Assembly: GCA_903911355.1 (NCBI GenBank)
Contig: CAIWDD010000001.1
Span: forward strand, 124,001-188,000
Direction: 5' to 3'
Length of the DNA stretch: 64,000 nucleotides
DNA from: an uncultured Nodularia sp.
Lineage (GTDB): Bacteria > Cyanobacteriota > Cyanobacteriia > Cyanobacteriales > Nostocaceae
The position numbers and the translations under genes were made by a program. Shown piece after piece: positions 53,031 to 63,120 of this stretch. Each line of letters opens with the position of its first letter. Within the stretch, counting starts at the first letter, position 1. The notes under the pieces were generated by a model, which saw only the letters and a list, made by a program, of their open reading frames with translations, was not told the origin of the DNA and ran no database searches.

Positions 53031-53522
53031 TTATTCTTCCAGTAAACTTCTCAACATCCAAGCTGTTTTCTCATGAACTTGCATCCGTTGAGTTAATAAA
53101 TCGGCGGTGGGTTCGTCGTTCACCTCTTCCAGTACGGGAAAAATAGAGCGTGCGGTTCTGACTACTGCTTCTTGTCCTTCCACCAGCAAGCTAATCATTT
53201 CCTTAGCTTTAGGAACTCCCGCAGTTTCTGCAATTGAACTGAGTTTAGCATATTCGCTGTAGGTTCCCGGTGCTGGGTATCCCAAGGCTCTAATCCTTTC
53301 TGCAATTAAGTCTACTGCTAAAGCGAGTTCTGTATACTGTGTCTCAAACATTAAATGTAACGTTTGGAACATTGGACCGGTAACGTTCCAATGAAAGTTA
53401 TGGGTTTTGAGATACAGTGTATAAGTGTCAGCCAATAAACGAGATAATCCCTCGGCAATTTTCGCTCTACTCGCGTCGTCAATACCGATATTGACACTTT
53501 TAGCTGTTGCTTGAGATGACAT
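53031..53522 (-). CDS. dps: Dps-family ferritin-like protein
   Basis: Dps proteins form 12-mers that oxidise and store iron and shield DNA. The ferroxidase ligands are present in [20 protein letters not shown] and [15 protein letters not shown]. The 163-residue length and helix pattern are typical. Start ATG 53522. It lies next to sulfiredoxin on the same strand, which fits a common oxidative-stress response, although no OxyR- or PerR-type site was recognised. Confidence 0.95.
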
Positions 53523-53571
53523 ATTTTTCTCCTCTTTACTTATATGTTTTACAAAGCTAACATCTATCCCA

Positions 53572-53835
53572 TTATGCTAAGTGCATCTTCAGCACCCCGG
53601 GTGTAGCTTTACGGACTCTGGCCTTGATTGTTACTTTACCTAAGCGTTGACAAGCTTCATAACGGTGACAACCGGAAAAACCATAATACTGTCCCTCCAC
53701 TTCTAGGACATCGATGGGTTCTTGTTGTCCAATCGCCGCAATAGACTCCATTAAGGCTTGGACTTTATCAGGGTCGTTGACACGGGGTAAAGGGCGCTTG
53801 ATTTGATTTAAGGGGATTTCTTCAACTCTCATCAT
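53572..53835 (-). CDS. srx: Sulfiredoxin
   Basis: Sulfiredoxin reduces overoxidised (sulfinic) peroxiredoxin with ATP. The signature [15 protein letters not shown] contains the catalytic Cys and the phosphate-binding His-Arg, and the ParB-like fold opens with [15 protein letters not shown]. The ATG at 53835 (MMRVEEIPL) is preferred: the upstream nine residues are outside the family and GAGAGG precedes this start by about 8 nt. The product is about 87 residues. It sits divergently from the retron region. Confidence 0.92.
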
Positions 53836-53878
53836 CCTTCTTTCCTCTCCTGCCTTAATCATAGTCGTTATGACTTTG

Positions 53879-53911
53879 ATTTACAATTAAGTTGAGTAAA
53901 AAATTGTAAAT
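53879..53911. promoter_or_regulatory. Inverted repeat upstream of sulfiredoxin
   Basis: ATTTACAATT (53879-53888) and AATTGTAAAT (53902-53911) are perfect 10-bp inverted halves around 13 bases, 44 bp upstream of the sulfiredoxin start. The position suits an operator. Confidence 0.4.
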
Positions 53912-54027
53912 GTAAATGTATATTAAATAACTACTTACCGTAAAGTAGGCGATCGCCTTGACAAAAGTTAAAAAAACGGGTGTTAAGTCATGCGATCGGA
54001 TAAAATCCAGGATACACGAGTATATTT

Positions 54028-54057
54028 TCGTCAATAGTCTATTTTTTGCTGTATAAT
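54028..54057 (+). promoter_or_regulatory. Candidate promoter of the retron
   Basis: TATAAT (54052-54057) is a perfect -10 element with TCGTCA (4 of 6 matches to TTGACA) 18 bp upstream at 54028-54033. Transcription would begin near 54063-54066, about 40 nt before the a1 repeat. Confidence 0.5.
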
Positions 54058-54063
54058 AGTTCT

Positions 54064-54242
54064 AAATCACATATTAAAGTGATTTACCATAGTAGTCATA
54101 TAAATCACTTGCGGTAACAAGTATTGATTTCCGTTGTTGATCCTGCGACGGTGTATTTCACGGTTAGCTTTAACCCAGATGTCCATCCTGACAACTGCTT
54201 TATCTTGAGTCGAATAAGCGAGAATATACCCGCAAGTGATAT
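54064..54242 (+). ncRNA. Candidate retron msr-msd RNA
   Basis: ATCACTTGCGG (54104-54114) pairs perfectly over 11 bp with CCGCAAGTGAT (54230-54240), the placement expected of the retron a1/a2 repeats. Enclosed are hairpins CCGTTGT/GCGACGG (54131-54151, seven pairs, two of them wobble), GGTTA/TAACC (54162-54175) and TCTTG/CGAGA (54203-54223). The a2 end is 28 nt before the preferred reverse-transcriptase start. Competing pairing with the 5' leader is possible (AAGTGATTT, 54077-54085). The branching guanosine was not identified. Confidence 0.48.
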
Positions 54243-54267
54243 TTTTTTATTATCTACTACAGACAAA

Positions 54268-55335
54268 GTGCCAAAAAAATCCCACTTATTTCTCCAGCGC
54301 AGTCCTGAGTTGTTGCGAGAAAAATTTTACTCTCTCAAACAACCAGTAGAGATAGCTGACCTTTTAGAAATTTCTTATTCTCGTCTGATTTATCATATAT
54401 ATCTGGTTACACCTGAAGAGCGTTATAAAACCTTTGGTATACCTAAAAAGTCTGGTGGTATCCGTCAAATAACAACTCCCATAACTGCGCTGAAAATTAT
54501 CCAAAGCAAACTGAATCAAGTTTTACAAGCAGTTTATGACATCAAACCATCAGTACATGGCTTTGTCATGGGCAAAAATATTGTTACCAATGCTCAAGCT
54601 CATGTCAAAAAACGCTATGTTCTCAATATTGATTTAAAAGATTTTTTCCCTAGTATTAATTTTGGTCGGGTGCGGGGTATGTTCATGGCTACCCCCTACG
54701 GATTACATCCAGAAGTTGCTACAGTTTTAGCTCAAATTTGCTGTCATAACAATCACTTACCTCAAGGTGCGCCAACCTCACCAATCATTAGTAATATGAT
54801 TTGTGGCAAGATGGATAGTCAATTACAGAGGTTGGCTAAAGATTGTAAAGCAACTTATACCAGATATGCCGATGATATTACTTTCTCAACAACTTTATCT
54901 CAATTCCCTAGAGATTTGGCATATATAACTAATGATGAAGATGGAGAAAAATTAGTTATTGGCAATAGTCTATTAAACATCATTAATACCAATGGGTTTG
55001 AAATCAATCAAAGTAAAGTCAGATTACAAACCAGGGGAAATCATCAAGAAGTTACAGGGTTAACAACCAATGTTTTTCCTAACGTTGACCGTACTTACGT
55101 GCGTCAAGTTCGCGCTATGCTCCACGCTTGGGCTAAGTTTGGACTTGAAGCTGCGGAGAAAGAATATTTATCTAAATATGAATTTAAAAATAGATTACCC
55201 CAGAAGGCAAAACCAACTTTTAAGCAAGTCCTGCGGGGGAAAATAGAGTTCATTGGAGTAGTCAAAGGTAAGGATGATCTAATATATAGAAAGTATCTAA
55301 AGCAGTATAAAAGTCTTATTAGTTTTGATTTGTAG
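54268..55335 (+). CDS. Retron-type reverse transcriptase
   Basis: Retron reverse transcriptases copy part of their own RNA into msDNA. The diagnostic motifs are here: NAQAH (NAxxH of region X) within TNAQAHVKKRYVLNIDLKDF, LPQGAPTSPIISNMIC, YTRYADDITFS with the catalytic YADD, and EVTGLTTN, the VTG of region Y. The domain opens LLREKFYSLKQPVEIADLLE. The frame is open back to TTG 54124, but those codons overlap the structured RNA; the GTG at 54268 is the first plausible start after a2 and gives 355 residues, although it lacks a clear ribosome-binding site. The next gene begins 23 bp downstream. Confidence 0.88.
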   Translation: MPKKSHLFLQRSPELLREKFYSLKQPVEIADLLEISYSRLIYHIYLVTPEERYKTFGIPKKSGGIRQITTPITALKIIQSKLNQVLQAVYDIKPSVHGFVMGKNIVTNAQAHVKKRYVLNIDLKDFFPSINFGRVRGMFMATPYGLHPEVATVLAQICCHNNHLPQGAPTSPIISNMICGKMDSQLQRLAKDCKATYTRYADDITFSTTLSQFPRDLAYITNDEDGEKLVIGNSLLNIINTNGFEINQSKVRLQTRGNHQEVTGLTTNVFPNVDRTYVRQVRAMLHAWAKFGLEAAEKEYLSKYEFKNRLPQKAKPTFKQVLRGKIEFIGVVKGKDDLIYRKYLKQYKSLISFDL

Positions 55336-55358
55336 TAAAAATAAATGAGGATTTGACG

Positions 55359-55934
55359 ATGGAAGCAAATTATTTAAAAGAAATTGAGGATCTTAAAGAG
55401 AAAATCAAAAAATTAGAAAATTATATTAAAGTTAAAGATTATGAATATTATAATCAAGTTAAAAAATATATGTCAGAAATTGACTATTATAGTTTCGACT
55501 ATCTGAAAAAGAATCTGGATGTGAGAGAACAACTGGAATTCGATTACAGAATGATGGTGAGAGCTAGGATAAAAAACGATTTTTTAGAGTTTTGCCGCTA
55601 TGCTTATTATCAAATTGAATTGATGACTAAAGTGTTAATAAAATATAAACAAGATAAAGGTGAAGATATAAGATTGAAGGATAATAGTTCCCCTGATACA
55701 CATCAAAAAAAGCTAAAATTTTGTTTAGAATCGATTCCAGGTAATAACAAAGAAAATGATAATAAAAGACCAAGTGATAAAGAACACATCGGGCAAAATT
55801 TTCACAATATCAAGGAAACTATTTACAATATTAGAGATTTGAGAAATATTGTCAGTCATAGAGGTTCTGCTCATCTTGATATAGAGTCTCGTATAAAAAA
55901 TTATGAAAATAATAACAGATATTCTGACAGATAA
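55359..55934 (+). CDS. Coiled-coil protein with HEPN-type RNase motif (candidate retron effector)
   Basis: The 191-residue protein starts with a coiled coil (YLKEIEDLKEKIKKLENYIK). The carboxy-terminal helical domain contains RNIVSH, the R-polar-x3-H arrangement of catalytic HEPN ribonucleases, in LRDLRNIVSHRG-like context. The ATG at 55359 is preferred to the TTG at 55353 because GAGG lies eight bases upstream. It directly follows the reverse transcriptase, so it is the likely toxic effector held in check by msDNA and RT. The gene is distinctly AT-rich compared with the neighbouring core genes. The HEPN call rests on motif and position, not on a full match. Confidence 0.68.
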   Translation: MEANYLKEIEDLKEKIKKLENYIKVKDYEYYNQVKKYMSEIDYYSFDYLKKNLDVREQLEFDYRMMVRARIKNDFLEFCRYAYYQIELMTKVLIKYKQDKGEDIRLKDNSSPDTHQKKLKFCLESIPGNNKENDNKRPSDKEHIGQNFHNIKETIYNIRDLRNIVSHRGSAHLDIESRIKNYENNNRYSDR

Positions 55935-56002
55935 TTATTTGTTCAAAAAACATTATTTAGACAATATGTTAATTGTCATTTTTTTTATGTGGAGTTAAAG
56001 GT

Positions 56003-56641
56003 ATGACTATTAGTTTTCTGCTATGGAACTCGGTAATTAAGAGCGAAGAAGAAAAAGACACTAAAAAGAAGTTATGCGAAATATTGTCAAACTATGGAGC
56101 TAAAGGAGCTAAAGTAGAAAATTCATCTTCCTACAAAAGTGACAAAGGAACAATATTTACTTTTGAAATAGAAAATATAGATGATGAAAAGACAATATGT
56201 AACAACATAGCAAACCAACAAATCACATATAATCCGTCTTTAACCAACTTCAAACTACGACCACAATTTTATCATGAAATTCAAATCAATAGTACATCTG
56301 AATTTATAGTATATAAATCTGAGAACGAAAAAGAACAAGAACAAGAATTTAAACGAGAATGTGAAAAAATTATTTGTGAACAAAATGTTGTTAAGAAGGT
56401 CAGAATACGTGATCATGGCGTAACTTTTGTAGAGTTATATAAAAAGGAACACGCAGAACTTTTAATTAACTATATAAATGATATGGCTAGGTCTAAGTCT
56501 AATTCTAAATTGAACGCATCCTTCACTAAGAATAGAGCAACTACACAGAACCTATACGATTTTTATCAAAAAAGTGATTATGATTCAGTTACTAAGAACT
56601 TAAGAATTTTTATTACTGAAATATGTAAATTACTGAAGTAG
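56003..56641 (+). CDS. Unknown protein, third gene of the retron locus
   Basis: I do not recognise this 212-residue protein. It begins MTISFLLWNSVIKSEEE, with GGAG about eight bases before the ATG at 56003. Two similar-sized parts each show strand-helix patterns of the ferredoxin-like kind: residues 1-90, and about 95-165 with EFKRECEKIICEQNVVKKVR and GVTFVELYKKEHAELLINYI. It is rich in Lys, Asn and Ile and as AT-rich as the HEPN-like gene. It lies 68 bp after that gene on the same strand, so it may be a third component of the system or an independent cargo. Confidence 0.6.
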   Translation: MTISFLLWNSVIKSEEEKDTKKKLCEILSNYGAKGAKVENSSSYKSDKGTIFTFEIENIDDEKTICNNIANQQITYNPSLTNFKLRPQFYHEIQINSTSEFIVYKSENEKEQEQEFKRECEKIICEQNVVKKVRIRDHGVTFVELYKKEHAELLINYINDMARSKSNSKLNASFTKNRATTQNLYDFYQKSDYDSVTKNLRIFITEICKLLK

Positions 56642-56672
56642 ATCCATACATCCAGAATGAAAGTGATAAAAT

Positions 56673-56777
56673 GAATTAAATAACGATCCAAACAAATGTA
56701 AGGATATCAAAGAGGTGCTCTCTTGGTTTGTCCAAGAAGTTTATAAGAGAATTGATAAAATTTCTCATCAAAATTAA
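56673..56777 (+). pseudogene. Possible coding remnant
   Basis: A 34-codon stretch (DPNKCKDIKEVLSWFVQEVY, then KRIDKISHQN) reads like the helical end of a protein but has no start codon and follows stops in frame. It may be a relic of a gene lost between the retron and the methyltransferase fragment. Confidence 0.25.
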
Positions 56778-56815
56778 CAATAGTTATTTTAATTTTCAAA
56801 CTAAACTAACAGTTT

Positions 56816-57337
56816 ATGATAACAGAGAAATTGGTGGCTATTGATTTATTTGCTGGTGCTGGAGGGTTTAGTTTAGGGTTTGAAATGGCCGGTTTTGTTG
56901 TACCTATATCAGTTGAAATAGATGCTTGGGCTTGTGATACGCTGCGTTATAACCACCCACAAATGACCGTGATTCAAAATGATATTCGTGAATTGAATAC
57001 CTTAACTACTGTAAAAGAAATTTGTCTTTACAACCCGGATATTATTATTGGCGGTCCACCATGTCAAGGTTTTAGCATTGCTGGACCAGCACAAAAAGAC
57101 CCGAATGATCCAAGAAATACTTTATTTATTAACTTTGCTCAGTGGATAAGTTTTCTTCAACCTAAAGCGTTTGTGATGGAGAACGTTAAAGGTTTACTAT
57201 CACGAAAAAATACTGATGGCGTTAACGTAATAGACCTTATTAGCAATAAGTTTGCAGAAATGGGATATTTTGTAGAAATATGGTTACTCAATTCTGCTGA
57301 ATACGGTGTACCACAAAGTTGGTTAATTGAAGAATAA
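56816..57337 (+). pseudogene. C5-cytosine DNA methyltransferase, truncated
   Basis: The 173 residues are the amino-terminal part of a Dcm-type methyltransferase: DLFAGAGGFSLGFEMAGF (motif I), IIGGPPCQGFS with the catalytic Cys (motif IV) and FVMENVKGLL (motif VI) are intact. After motif VIII (NSAEYGVPQ) the reading frame goes off and stops (SWLIEE). The target-recognition domain and motifs IX-X, some 150-200 residues, are missing, so it cannot be a working enzyme. It faces the ISP-type restriction gene, whose end is 84 bp away, as if that enzyme replaced an older system. Confidence 0.88.
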
Positions 57338-57421: not shown

Positions 57422-60400
57422 TTACTCACCTTCTGCATCCATCTCTTGTATATTGAAAATTGGTAACTCTGTCTCCACTTCTAAAGAGTTGGATTTTTCT
57501 AACTCTGTTGGTTGTGGAAATTCCGTAGCTGCAAATAATTCACTGTTAATTACTTCCGCAAATAAGGAAGATAAACTAGGATATAAATCTACAGTAGCAT
57601 CTAAAACCCAGAGTAAATCAAGCAATTCACCATCAAATTGCCAAGTTTGAGGACGAATATCATCCAAAGGTGAGGACTTTTTACCAGCACCGTCTCTCAT
57701 CCTATAAGCTAACCAGGACTTGACAACTTCTAAACCTGAAACACTAAAATTATAAACTTCTGGGCGGACATTTTCAAATACACCTCTACCAACTTTTAAT
57801 TCTTGTGTACCCACATCATAAGAAAATTCTGTGGGATAATCATTGACTGTATTGGGTATTCCTACTTGACAACGAACTTTACCAATAGGAATTTTACCTG
57901 GTTTTTTACCACTGGGAACAAACCTTTCACCATAGGTATGTAACCAAACTAAAGTGCGTCCTATTTCCACTACTTTAATAAATAAATCCCTATTTTTAGT
58001 AATGGGAATCCTTGGTCCAGGTGTTTCTAGTTCATGCCAAAATTCTTTGACATATTTGGGAGTTGCTAGTATAGCATAACAATAAGCAAAAAAATCTTCT
58101 GGGTGAATATTGCAATTGAGTATATTACTAATAACTTCTAAAACTCCAGGCGTAATATTAGGTTGATTAGCTTGCGAATTTCTCCAGAGAGGGATAATAT
58201 CTTTTGCTCCACGTCCACAAAAATAGTCTAAATCAGGAATTTGTGAAGTGATTACAGATGACTGACCGTGACCTAAAACTTTAGTTAATAAACTTGTCAT
58301 ATAAACTTGCTGATCACTGTGAGAACGTCGTAAATTTGGTCTAGGGCGATCGCACAATCTATTATCTAATAAAGCCCACTGACGATCAAAACTGCGATAA
58401 GCATAACGAATTGGTTCTACAGGTAAATCCTTAGATAATAAATTAGCAATGGGAGCTAATAAATTTCCTTTATCTTCTAAAGATGAATACTGTTTACTAA
58501 TTTTTCTAGCATCTGTTTCTTTAAACAGTTTTTTCTGTATCCCCGGCGATTTACTAGCATTAATCAAAGTTTGCCAACGTTTATGTAAAACTTCCTTGTT
58601 TTCACCAATAGTCCATTTTCTTTTAAATTGAATACCATTTTCTTGCCAAGGAAATAAATCAGTTAACTTTGCCCAATTCCAATAATGTGTATCACTAACA
58701 GGTAAAAATAAATCAGTCCAATTATTAGGACATTCACGCCATTGTAAATCTTTAAAAGAGTGAATATTATCTAAAATTGCTAGTTTTTCTTGAGTTGTAC
58801 CATCAATTCTGGTAAAATGAACTTTAGCAGCAACTTCAGGTTGAGGTTGGTTGTAACAAACCCCAATAGCAATAGCCACAGGAGTTTGAATTGCAAACAC
58901 ATTATCTGTTTTTCTAGCCCCTAAATTATCACCTTCCAAATCAATAATCCATAGTTCATCAAACGTTTGACGCATCACCTTACGCATTCCCGCAAATCCA
59001 GGACCACGCAAATAGGAAGAAGCTGTAATAAAACTGATAATTCCGGCTTTATTTTCTGTGTTAGCTTCAAATACTTTCCACAAAGCCCATCGCCAAAAAT
59101 AAACATAGTCATTATATAAATTTTTAGCATGAACACCATAACCCATTTCTGTTAATGGTTCTAGAAAATCCTCTAAAATCGGACGTTTTTTAATTAATCG
59201 CCGATTTTCATCTACCTTTTGTTCATCATCTCCAAATCTAACCCAGCCACCCTTTCTTTTTTGATTAATTAAATCATCTTCATCAATTGTTTGACGGTTA
59301 TAAGGTGGATTCCCTAAGCAAACCATCACCGGTGTATTCTGTTTAATTTTTTGAGCGCGTTTATATTCTTGACCTAAAGATTTGTAAATTAAAGGTAAAT
59401 TGCCACTTAATTCAGCATAGGGAGATTCTAAAGTATCACTCAAATAAACATGAACACCATTTTCAGGTAAAGTACCACCTTCACTTAAAATCTGTTGAGT
59501 GAGACGTAAATGAGCAACAGCATAAGGCCCAACTAAGATTTCAAAAGCGTGAATATTTGCTGCTGCATTTGTAGCAGCAGAAACTCTCATTCCTTTTCCT
59601 CTTAAATTACTAATTTGATCCAGTCCATGTTTAATAGCTGTTAAAATATAAGTTCCTGTACCACAAGCAGGATCTAAAGTAATAACTTTATCATCTACAA
59701 AGGAAAATTCAGCATCAAAATGCTCTCCTAATAATTCAGCTACTAATCTTACTTGTGTTTTAATAACAGGAATAGGAGTATAATAAACGCCTCTTTCTTT
59801 TCTCATCTTTGGATCATATTGAGCCAAAAAATCCTCATAAAAATATAACCAAGGGTCTTCAGAATCATTTTCATTTAGTGCTGTAATATCAATAGCTGCA
59901 ATTATTCTTTCTAATAGACTTACAGAAACTTCTATTTGTTCACGTGCTTCTTCATCACCTAAGATTTTTAAAGCATCAGCTAGTAAATTATGACCAGTTC
60001 TAATAGTTTTAACAGCTTGTGGTAAAGATAGATCATCAGCACCCGAAAACCTGGCTAATAAAAGTGCATAGGTTAAGGTTTGAGCATAAGCATCTGCAAA
60101 TTGTGGATTATCTGCATCAGGAAACAAATAATGTCGCCAATCTTTAGCTAATTGACTTAAATTAGATTCAGGATTCTCCAGAGCATTTAAAACATCTGTT
60201 CTTAACAAACGACAAATAGGCGCAAGCATTTCAGCAAGAGCTTTTGGTGTTGAAGGAACAATTGGATACCAATTGAAAAAATCTCGTAATAATGTTAGTA
60301 AATCATTAGCATTTTGAGAACTAATAGCTGATCCACCCTTGCAAGTAATATCTCCTGAAAATTTAATGATCTTTCCGACCTTTTCACCTGTGCGATACAG

Positions 60401-60781
60401 TCCCCAATTATTGCCATCTGTGTAAATCACATTTGGGATATTTTTAAACTTTTCCCACTGTTGTTTATCATCTCCTTTTAATTTACTAGGATCTGCGCCC
60501 TTTCCCGGTGCTTTTAGTTCAATATGTCCAATTAAAAGACCATTAATCGTTATTCCCATATCTGGTCTTCCTGAAAGTAGCTTTTCTTGTACCTCAGTAA
60601 CTACTACAATAGATAAATTCAGAATATTTGCTGCTAATTTTAACAAATTTTCTATAGGTGATTTCAGTTGATCTTCAGCACCGAAAGAGACAGAAGAAAG
60701 TGAGAATTTATTAGTTAATTCCTTGGCATAAGCTTGAAGACTCGATAAAAATTGACTCTCATGATTATTCGCCATATTCAT
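57422..60781 (-). CDS. Type ISP/IIG-like restriction-modification enzyme
   Basis: A single-chain enzyme that both cuts and methylates DNA. Near residues 70-92 is a PD-(D/E)xK-like nuclease motif (GRPDMGITI, then HIELKAPG). The adenine N6-methyltransferase core has DPACGTGTY (motif I, about 360) and NPPYNRQ (motif IV, about 488). A long carboxy part acts in specificity, including YFCGRGAKDIIPLWRN. No helicase motif is seen, which is closer to Type IIG than classical Type ISP. The ATG at 60781 gives about 1119 residues; the frame extends upstream to 60844. With the methyltransferases nearby it makes this a defence island. Confidence 0.88.
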   Translation of the reverse strand: MNMANNHESQFLSSLQAYAKELTNKFSLSSVSFGAEDQLKSPIENLLKLAANILNLSIVVVTEVQEKLLSGRPDMGITINGLLIGHIELKAPGKGADPSKLKGDDKQQWEKFKNIPNVIYTDGNNWGLYRTGEKVGKIIKFSGDITCKGGSAISSQNANDLLTLLRDFFNWYPIVPSTPKALAEMLAPICRLLRTDVLNALENPESNLSQLAKDWRHYLFPDADNPQFADAYAQTLTYALLLARFSGADDLSLPQAVKTIRTGHNLLADALKILGDEEAREQIEVSVSLLERIIAAIDITALNENDSEDPWLYFYEDFLAQYDPKMRKERGVYYTPIPVIKTQVRLVAELLGEHFDAEFSFVDDKVITLDPACGTGTYILTAIKHGLDQISNLRGKGMRVSAATNAAANIHAFEILVGPYAVAHLRLTQQILSEGGTLPENGVHVYLSDTLESPYAELSGNLPLIYKSLGQEYKRAQKIKQNTPVMVCLGNPPYNRQTIDEDDLINQKRKGGWVRFGDDEQKVDENRRLIKKRPILEDFLEPLTEMGYGVHAKNLYNDYVYFWRWALWKVFEANTENKAGIISFITASSYLRGPGFAGMRKVMRQTFDELWIIDLEGDNLGARKTDNVFAIQTPVAIAIGVCYNQPQPEVAAKVHFTRIDGTTQEKLAILDNIHSFKDLQWRECPNNWTDLFLPVSDTHYWNWAKLTDLFPWQENGIQFKRKWTIGENKEVLHKRWQTLINASKSPGIQKKLFKETDARKISKQYSSLEDKGNLLAPIANLLSKDLPVEPIRYAYRSFDRQWALLDNRLCDRPRPNLRRSHSDQQVYMTSLLTKVLGHGQSSVITSQIPDLDYFCGRGAKDIIPLWRNSQANQPNITPGVLEVISNILNCNIHPEDFFAYCYAILATPKYVKEFWHELETPGPRIPITKNRDLFIKVVEIGRTLVWLHTYGERFVPSGKKPGKIPIGKVRCQVGIPNTVNDYPTEFSYDVGTQELKVGRGVFENVRPEVYNFSVSGLEVVKSWLAYRMRDGAGKKSSPLDDIRPQTWQFDGELLDLLWVLDATVDLYPSLSSLFAEVINSELFAATEFPQPTELEKSNSLEVETELPIFNIQEMDAEGE

Positions 60782-60844
60782 AAAAAAAATAACAATTATT
60801 GATACATCATCTATGTATCCAAACATTTTATAATGATTTGTCAT

Positions 60845-62081: not shown

Positions 62082-62975
62082 TTATGTTGTAGTATTCGCC
62101 TCAAAAATATTACTTTTTATCACATCCAAATTTAATTCTTGACCATTCTTATTTTTAACCTGATGATTTTTCTGAGGTGGTAAAAGTTCCTCTCCTTTAT
62201 ATTCTAGTAATTCTAAAACCCGTCTCAAACCAATTTTTAAATATTCTTCCTGTAGTTCAATACTGATAGATTTTCTCCCTAATCGTTTAGCTACCGCAGC
62301 AGTTGTAAAAGTACCAGCAAAGGGGTCAAGTATTAAACTTCCCTCATGACTACTTGCTAAAATAATTCTTTCTAGTAATGACTCCGGTTTTTGTGAAGGA
62401 TGGTTTTCATATTCCGCCATGCGATATCTCACACGGGGAAAATACCAAGCATTACCGGGTACTTTTTCCGCATTATAAGGAGTAGGTACAGATTTTCTGT
62501 AATCGATTAATTTACGTTCTGCGCCTGTTTTGGCGGCAATTTTAATATTATCACTATTAAAAATATAATTGTTTTTATTTTTGACGCAATGGAGAATGGG
62601 TTCATACATTGAACCAAAGTATTTTGTAGCTTGTACTCCGGAGCTATCATAATGCCATATGATGCGACTGAGAATAGTTAACTTTTTTCTCAGGTAAATG
62701 TCAAAATAAGGCATTGCTTGGGTGCTAGTCATGAGATAAATTGTCCCATTTGGTTTGAGAATGCGAATACACTGATCAAGCCATTGATATGACCAATTTA
62801 AATATTCTGCTTCTGATTCCCATTTATCATGGAAATTGCTAAATTTCTTACCTATGTTATAGGGAGGATCAATAAAGATTAAATCTACGGAATCTGTAGG
62901 AATATATTTTGATAAGGTGCTGATAGTATCACCATGAAAAATGGTATGTTGTTGATTTTGGTAGCGCTCAATCAT
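62082..62975 (-). CDS. DNA methyltransferase, beta-class (N4-cytosine/N6-adenine)
   Basis: The motif order is that of the beta class: the catalytic motif IV comes first (FIDPPYNIGKKF), and motif I comes last (SLILDPFAGTFTTAAVAKRL), with HPSQKPESLLERIILAS (motif X) between them. The ATG at 62975 (MIERYQNQQHTIF) gives about 297 residues. It has its own terminator and no restriction gene directly beside it, so it may be an orphan or belong to the ISP-type system. The recognised sequence is unknown. Confidence 0.9.
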   Translation of the reverse strand: MIERYQNQQHTIFHGDTISTLSKYIPTDSVDLIFIDPPYNIGKKFSNFHDKWESEAEYLNWSYQWLDQCIRILKPNGTIYLMTSTQAMPYFDIYLRKKLTILSRIIWHYDSSGVQATKYFGSMYEPILHCVKNKNNYIFNSDNIKIAAKTGAERKLIDYRKSVPTPYNAEKVPGNAWYFPRVRYRMAEYENHPSQKPESLLERIILASSHEGSLILDPFAGTFTTAAVAKRLGRKSISIELQEEYLKIGLRRVLELLEYKGEELLPPQKNHQVKNKNGQELNLDVIKSNIFEANTTT

Positions 62976-63120
62976 AATTATCCTTGACAACTTTACCATG
63001 TTTACATAAACATACGTGAAAAACTTTAGGTAAGAATTAATTCTCTACCACTTCAGTCCTTTGTACGTGATGTTAAATAAAAGCTATACCCAGCAAACTG
63101 CTGCTTGTTAACCAACTAAT

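Follow-up and report, generated by a model that had tools for sequence, protein, structure and literature searches.

A very probable complete retron locus of Nodularia with a conserved msr-msd RNA, a standalone reverse transcriptase and a probable, exchangeable HEPN-type effector

Our analysis implies that the locus described here is, very probably, a complete retron operon, composed of an msr-msd RNA, a standalone reverse transcriptase (RT), a HEPN-type RNase and an RRM-related partner. It lies in a stretch of 64,000 nucleotides from an uncultured Nodularia sp. (contig CAIWDD010000001.1), which is called the window below. Retrons are bacterial elements believed to defend the cell against viruses by means of a small RNA-DNA hybrid that they make. 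A preliminary description, made from the letters of the window, had proposed a candidate msr-msd in front of the RT, and this reading is supported; the inner stem, the conserved guanosine, the downstream HEPN and RRM genes and the exchange of effectors go beyond that description. From the parts of the locus we infer msDNA, RNase activity and phage defence. The features are the following, in window coordinates:

54028 to 54057, forward strand: promoter-like site (TCGTCA, 18 nt, TATAAT), a 10/12 sigma-70 match in a consensus scan, weak alone
54064 to 54085, forward strand: 5' leader hairpin AAATCAC/GTGATTT between the -10 box and a1, seen in the sequence and its fold
54104 to 54114, forward strand: a1, 5' arm of the outer stem, ATCACTTGCGG, exact complement of 54230-54240
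54121 to 54125, forward strand: 5' strand of the inner a1/a2 stem, GTATT, pairing with 54223-54227
54126, forward strand: predicted priming (2'-5' branch) guanosine, the first base past the inner stem
54131 to 54151, forward strand: msr hairpin CCGTTGT-TGATCCT-GCGACGG, conserved and covarying
54152 to 54222, forward strand: predicted msd template region, its 3' boundary placed from the stem
54162 to 54175, forward strand: possible second msr hairpin GGTTA-GCTT-TAACC, from the fold of the window sequence
54223 to 54227, forward strand: 3' strand of the inner stem, AATAT, pairing with 54121-54125
54230 to 54240, forward strand: a2, 3' arm of the outer stem, CCGCAAGTGAT, exact reverse complement of a1
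54268 to 55335, forward strand: retron RT, 355 aa, GTG start, no fused effector domain (PADLOC, RVT_1)
55359 to 55934, forward strand: ORF2, probable HEPN RNase, 191 aa, RNIVSH (R-x4-H motif, helical model)
56003 to 56641, forward strand: ORF3, RRM-related partner, 212 aa (homology to ORFs of loci L054 and L061)

The order of promoter-like site, a1, msr, msd, a2 and RT that had been proposed is upheld. The 11-bp pair of a1 and a2 is exact in the window and is conserved in the relatives, and the GTG start stands in frame 27 nt beyond the end of a2. The TATAAT proposed as a -10 box is present (54052-54057), but the region 53900-57000 holds 17 sigma-70-type matches against a shuffled mean of 15.4, so the promoter-like site is weak evidence by itself. 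The leader hairpin has, by eye, similar counterparts in L053-L059 and is weak or absent in several other loci. Folding of 54090-54260 gave -43.6 kcal/mol (z = -3.64), and none of 200 shuffles was as good. Exact inverted repeats of at least 11 bp with a span of 100-200 occur at three places in the window; the pair is thus unremarkable alone, and the case therefore rests on the relatives. No Rfam family reached its gathering score, the three matches (E 0.42-9.1) being far below theirs.

A covariance model, R1, was built from 17 aligned relatives and searched against 98 sources (1.1 Mb, both strands), where it gave 54 matches at E<=0.1 in 52 sources, 35 of them outside the 17 used for building; some redundancy is included (L042 repeats L062, L096 repeats L047, and the RNA of L052 equals that of the window). 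Every one of the 54 matches adjoins a retron-type RT, on whose strand it stands, at a distance of -24 to 536 nt ahead of RT residue 1. In the alignment of these matches (A3, which was fitted to R1 and so leans towards it) 96.6% of pair cells are kept, against 30-56% in slid controls, and two-sided changes number 237, against 57.5 in shuffled alignments and at most 52 in slid controls. Compensatory covariation of this kind had been suggested earlier as a check of the 11-bp pair, and two-sided changes were found at 11 of its 11 pairs. Of the hairpins that the pair was said to enclose, the one at 54131-54151 is borne out (97.5% of cells paired, two-sided changes at 5 of 7 pairs), but RNAalifold on A3 returned no conserved hairpin in the msd; besides the outer stem and the first msr hairpin it gave a single isolated pair. 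As DNA, the window msd (54155-54222) folds poorly (z -0.90). The insert of R1 is variable in length and has conserved ends; the predicted msd contains this variable stretch, which the msr and the conserved motif at the end enclose. The msr-msd RNA is a conserved structure tied to the RT.

It had also been considered that 54124-54267 might simply encode the RT amino terminus, which conservation at the amino-acid level only would have indicated. The outcome is the opposite, since the base pairs are kept through compensatory change. In the window and in L052 the RT frame stays open, by chance, over 150 nt of upstream sequence, and in the close relatives L053-L058 it is already closed 12-27 nt ahead of the GTG start; therefore, the RT amino terminus does not extend into the upstream region, and the coding reading is rejected.

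Across 386 cyanobacterial genomes, the RNA was found in 18, of which 17 also have an RT match; the eighteenth, G093, carries a decayed locus in which what is left of the RNA runs into a truncated kinase gene. The RT itself was matched at E<=1e-40 in 28 of the 386 genomes, and 11 of these 28 gave no R1 match under stricter filters that lose weak matches. In the decayed retron at L229 (1501-2146) an RNA remnant is joined to the start of the kinase gene and the RT and HEPN genes are missing. The relic L239 has C-terminal pieces of RT and HEPN protein plus a kinase gene.

Judged by its sequence, the RT of the window belongs with those of retron types XI, XII and I-C, yet it stands alone, as no fused Toprim, protease or TIR domain follows its RT domain, where the protein ends. 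Retron RTs are the families that it matches best, and the PADLOC retron models score it at 471 (XI), 448 (XII), 440 (I-C) and 178 (IX) bits. Over 14 aligned RTs, the DD of YADD is invariant and VTG is nearly so, the VTG of region Y being given as a retron RT feature in the part of a review available to us (PMC6868368). In a quick tree of 93 RTs, supported by SH-aLRT only, a set of 25 rows stands among fused RTs and is composed of five other standalone RTs and 20 labelled as HEPN-type, a label that includes L060 and L063, where the contig stops within the effector gene or ahead of it; its SH-aLRT of 92 is below the program's mark of 95. The scan of GTDB genomes gave 577 RT relatives, and the analysis retained the best 80 of them. 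Viral contigs hold at least 80 relatives, with identity of at most 44% (best segment) among the matches listed, and one relative (L031) lies on plasmid pAQ5 of Picosynechococcus PCC 7002, a laboratory strain. A second cyanobacterial clade of standalone RTs (L080-L084, L096, L103) has its own ncRNA and no evident downstream partner. In L033 (3980-8343) and L046 an RT of the clade to which the window RT belongs is fused to an AAA_5 (McrB-like) domain, and in L033 a protein with PDDEXK_7 and weak DUF2357 matches follows; these two loci are possibly a retron-McrBC system with its own ncRNA.

The gene following the RT probably encodes a HEPN RNase, as suggested by its motif, its helical model and its context. 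At 20 loci including the window, the next gene is an ORF that starts -10 to +70 nt from the RT stop, and R-x4-H occurs in 20 of these 20 ORFs, against 3.7 expected from shuffles. The R and H columns are, besides the start, the only invariant ones in the 20 aligned ORFs, and sequence similarity is common to most of them. The predicted model of ORF2 is helical (mean pLDDT 74.4), and ORF2 weakly matches the PADLOC CARF-HEPN model (E 0.041). Foldseek with the ORF2 model returned nothing at E<=0.001, the HEPN toxin 8yuf appearing among unrelated rows at E 6.6 / Z 4.2. A profile of 13 members (A4) matched no Pfam family named HEPN at E<=1 and nothing among PDB sequences; in plasmid searches ORF2 had one weak match and ORF3 none.

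For ORF3, the relation to RRM proteins comes from its homologues in L054 and L061, which pass Pfam RRM_1 with 33.3 and 33.6 bits (cutoff 20.7). ORF3 itself gave no RRM match in Pfam and a weak ELAV/HuD match in NCBIfam (E 0.013), and its predicted model is of low confidence (mean pLDDT 50.7). A single 290-aa protein of L053 matches ORF2 with roughly one half and ORF3 with the other. A further gene stands after the effector in L030, L031, L038, L041, L044 and L061; that of L061 is a P-loop kinase with polynucleotide kinase matches and a WYL region, and it has homologues in L030, L031, L038 and L041, the one in L044 being related only in the C-terminal part. The HEPN gene of G368 is followed by a gene for an 809-aa protein that has no confident match in Pfam (L040, 3932-6361), and a counterpart in G326 (L238) is 62% identical over the available part.

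Effector genes are exchanged between near-identical retron cores. The window and L052 (Anabaenopsis elenkinii) are 97.8% identical over 53035-55316, with the same ncRNA letter for letter; beyond 55316 the window has two genes, where L052 has one HEPN-type gene whose 280-aa product is 22% identical to ORF2. Likewise, L054 and L057 are 95% identical in the sequences flanking the effector segment, which itself fails to align. As the ncRNA-RT DNA is 95-98% identical and the effectors differ in two sister pairs, the effectors were exchanged as cassettes, and since each pair needs its own event, this happened at least twice.

One would argue from this very observation, near-identical cores that carry different effector genes, that the retron core is real and that ORF2 and ORF3 are passing neighbours in a defence island and no effector. 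Restriction-modification genes do adjoin the locus, and 6 of the 27 distinct loci of the group with downstream sequence have neither a HEPN ORF nor a remnant of one (L037, L045, L064, L065, L073 and L036, whose RT has a stop). However, the R-x4-H ORF directly follows the RT in 20 of the 27, and in L049, the single locus with a remnant, a shortened RT (its amino-terminal part) runs into a HEPN piece. Moreover, A4 matched 9 of the 386 genomes, and each match is either within or next to the remains of a retron or is consistent with a contig break at one: seven are beside an RT, one is a relic and one stands where its contig ends, which agrees with an RT at the end of another contig. A4 had no match in the genomes of L057, L043, L062 and L044, where the ORFs are more diverged. 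We thus regard the neighbour explanation as unlikely and keep ORF2 as the probable effector. The restriction-modification genes next to the retron form a defence island, composed of a short C5-methylase fragment (56816-57337), a type IIG restriction enzyme (57422-60844) and an N6/N4 methylase (62082-62999).

The inner stem puts forward a likely priming nucleotide. According to the available part of PMC6868368, the a1/a2 stem of retrons contains the priming G or stops just before it, and G54126 is the first base past the inner stem; by this position it is likely the priming nucleotide. The inner stem is paired in 91.7% of cells, with two-sided changes at 3 of its 5 pairs, a number of pairs reached by 114 of 500 shuffles and so not unusual; the two-sided changes themselves, at positions outside R1, number 24 against 6.7 in shuffles. 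G stands at the position of 54126 in 48 of 54 aligned rows and is absent in 6. Its context is TTGA and not AGC, the same part of PMC6868368 giving TAGC for most retrons and CAGA for Ec67. Both the unusual context and the fact that the G is not invariant would suit a different kind of RNA, a defence-associated (DRT-like) template or a regulatory RNA that the RT uses without forming branched msDNA. We consider this very unlikely: the NCBIfam Drt families score the window RT at most 37 bits, far from the 471 bits of the best retron model, and in the Ec67-family locus L241 the stem, the G (in G-ATTT) and the hairpin follow, by eye, in the same order as in the window.

It is highly improbable that the stem is only a cis-regulatory leader that attenuates the RT operon: the run of seven T that follows a2 (54242-54248) could help such a function and the msr hairpin scored as terminator-like (1 found vs 1.3 in shuffles), but the insert varies in length between conserved ends, two tandem copies of the RNA precede one RT in L061 (5295-5895) and L041 (7996-8464), and one RNA lineage is common to fused RT-Toprim and RT-TIR retrons, R1 matching upstream of RT-Toprim in L070 and L093 and of RT-TIR in L076, besides RT-AAA_5 in L033 and L046.

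A retron operon of this composition may work as follows. One transcript would provide both the msr-msd RNA and the mRNA for the RT, the HEPN-type RNase and the RRM-related partner. The two-part a1/a2 stem (11 + 5 bp) would present the conserved G54126 to the RT; with this G as the primer, the enzyme would copy the msd upstream from about 54222, yielding branched msDNA. By analogy to Eco2 and Kva2, the complex of msDNA and RT may keep the HEPN protein from acting as long as no phage protein disturbs the complex; the freed HEPN protein would then cut RNA, probably tRNA, and growth would stop. For Eco2, the available text describes a self-inhibited RT-msDNA assembly with an RNase effector, the activation of which is linked to the phage protein DenB (PMC12405507), and for Kva2 it describes a HEPN protein held inside the RT-msDNA complex and loss of tRNA on activation (PMC13405049). 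Tentatively, and with considerable doubt, one could go further and regard the msr-msd RNA and RT as one lineage of a generic sensing core that accepts unrelated killers (Toprim, TIR, McrBC-like, HEPN-RRM, HEPN plus kinase-WYL), the whole cassette being exchanged at the 3' end of the RT gene and the sensor staying unchanged; the kinase-WYL protein of some relatives would then reset or repair the RNA cut by HEPN.

The locus is close to several known systems and differs from each. With Retron-Eco2/Ec67 (type I-C, an RT-Toprim fusion) it has in common the RT clade and the order of stem, G and msr hairpin, and the RNase effector of Eco2 (PMC12405507, available part) has its likeness in the probable RNase of the window; in contrast, the window RT is standalone, its effector would be a separate HEPN-type protein, and the letters of stem and msd differ, judged by eye. 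Types XI (RT-protease) and XII (RT-TIR) provide the models that score the window RT best in PADLOC, and R1 finds a related ncRNA upstream of the RT-TIR of L076 (E 0.00075), whereas the window protein lacks the protease or TIR part of these types. Type IX Kva2 (HEPN plus winged helix) likewise encodes a HEPN RNase effector with its RT and ncRNA (PMC13405049, available part). However, the type IX model falls far behind XI for the window RT (178 vs 471 bits), no winged-helix gene was seen adjoining this RT, RRM-related or kinase-WYL partners being found in the group instead, and the same source reports no canonical motif for Kva2, whereas the window group has R-x4-H.

A standalone RT with an exchangeable HEPN-type effector was not described in the libraries, titles, abstract starts or passages searched (the last from PMC13405049, PMC6868368, PMC12548924, PMC8867640 and PMC12405507, each in part), a judgement that leaves aside the main classification paper (Mestre 2020). 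The system is a retron variant unmatched in these libraries and papers, with a standalone RT related to types I-C, XI and XII and an exchangeable HEPN-type effector. A review of 2019 counted Cyanobacteria, in its available part, among the groups without an experimentally validated retron (PMC6868368). The analysis defines a strongly covarying cyanobacterial ncRNA family, predicts its priming G and points to a probable RNase effector. Sister loci in which one sensor is combined with different effectors provide natural experiments on the recognition of an effector by its retron.
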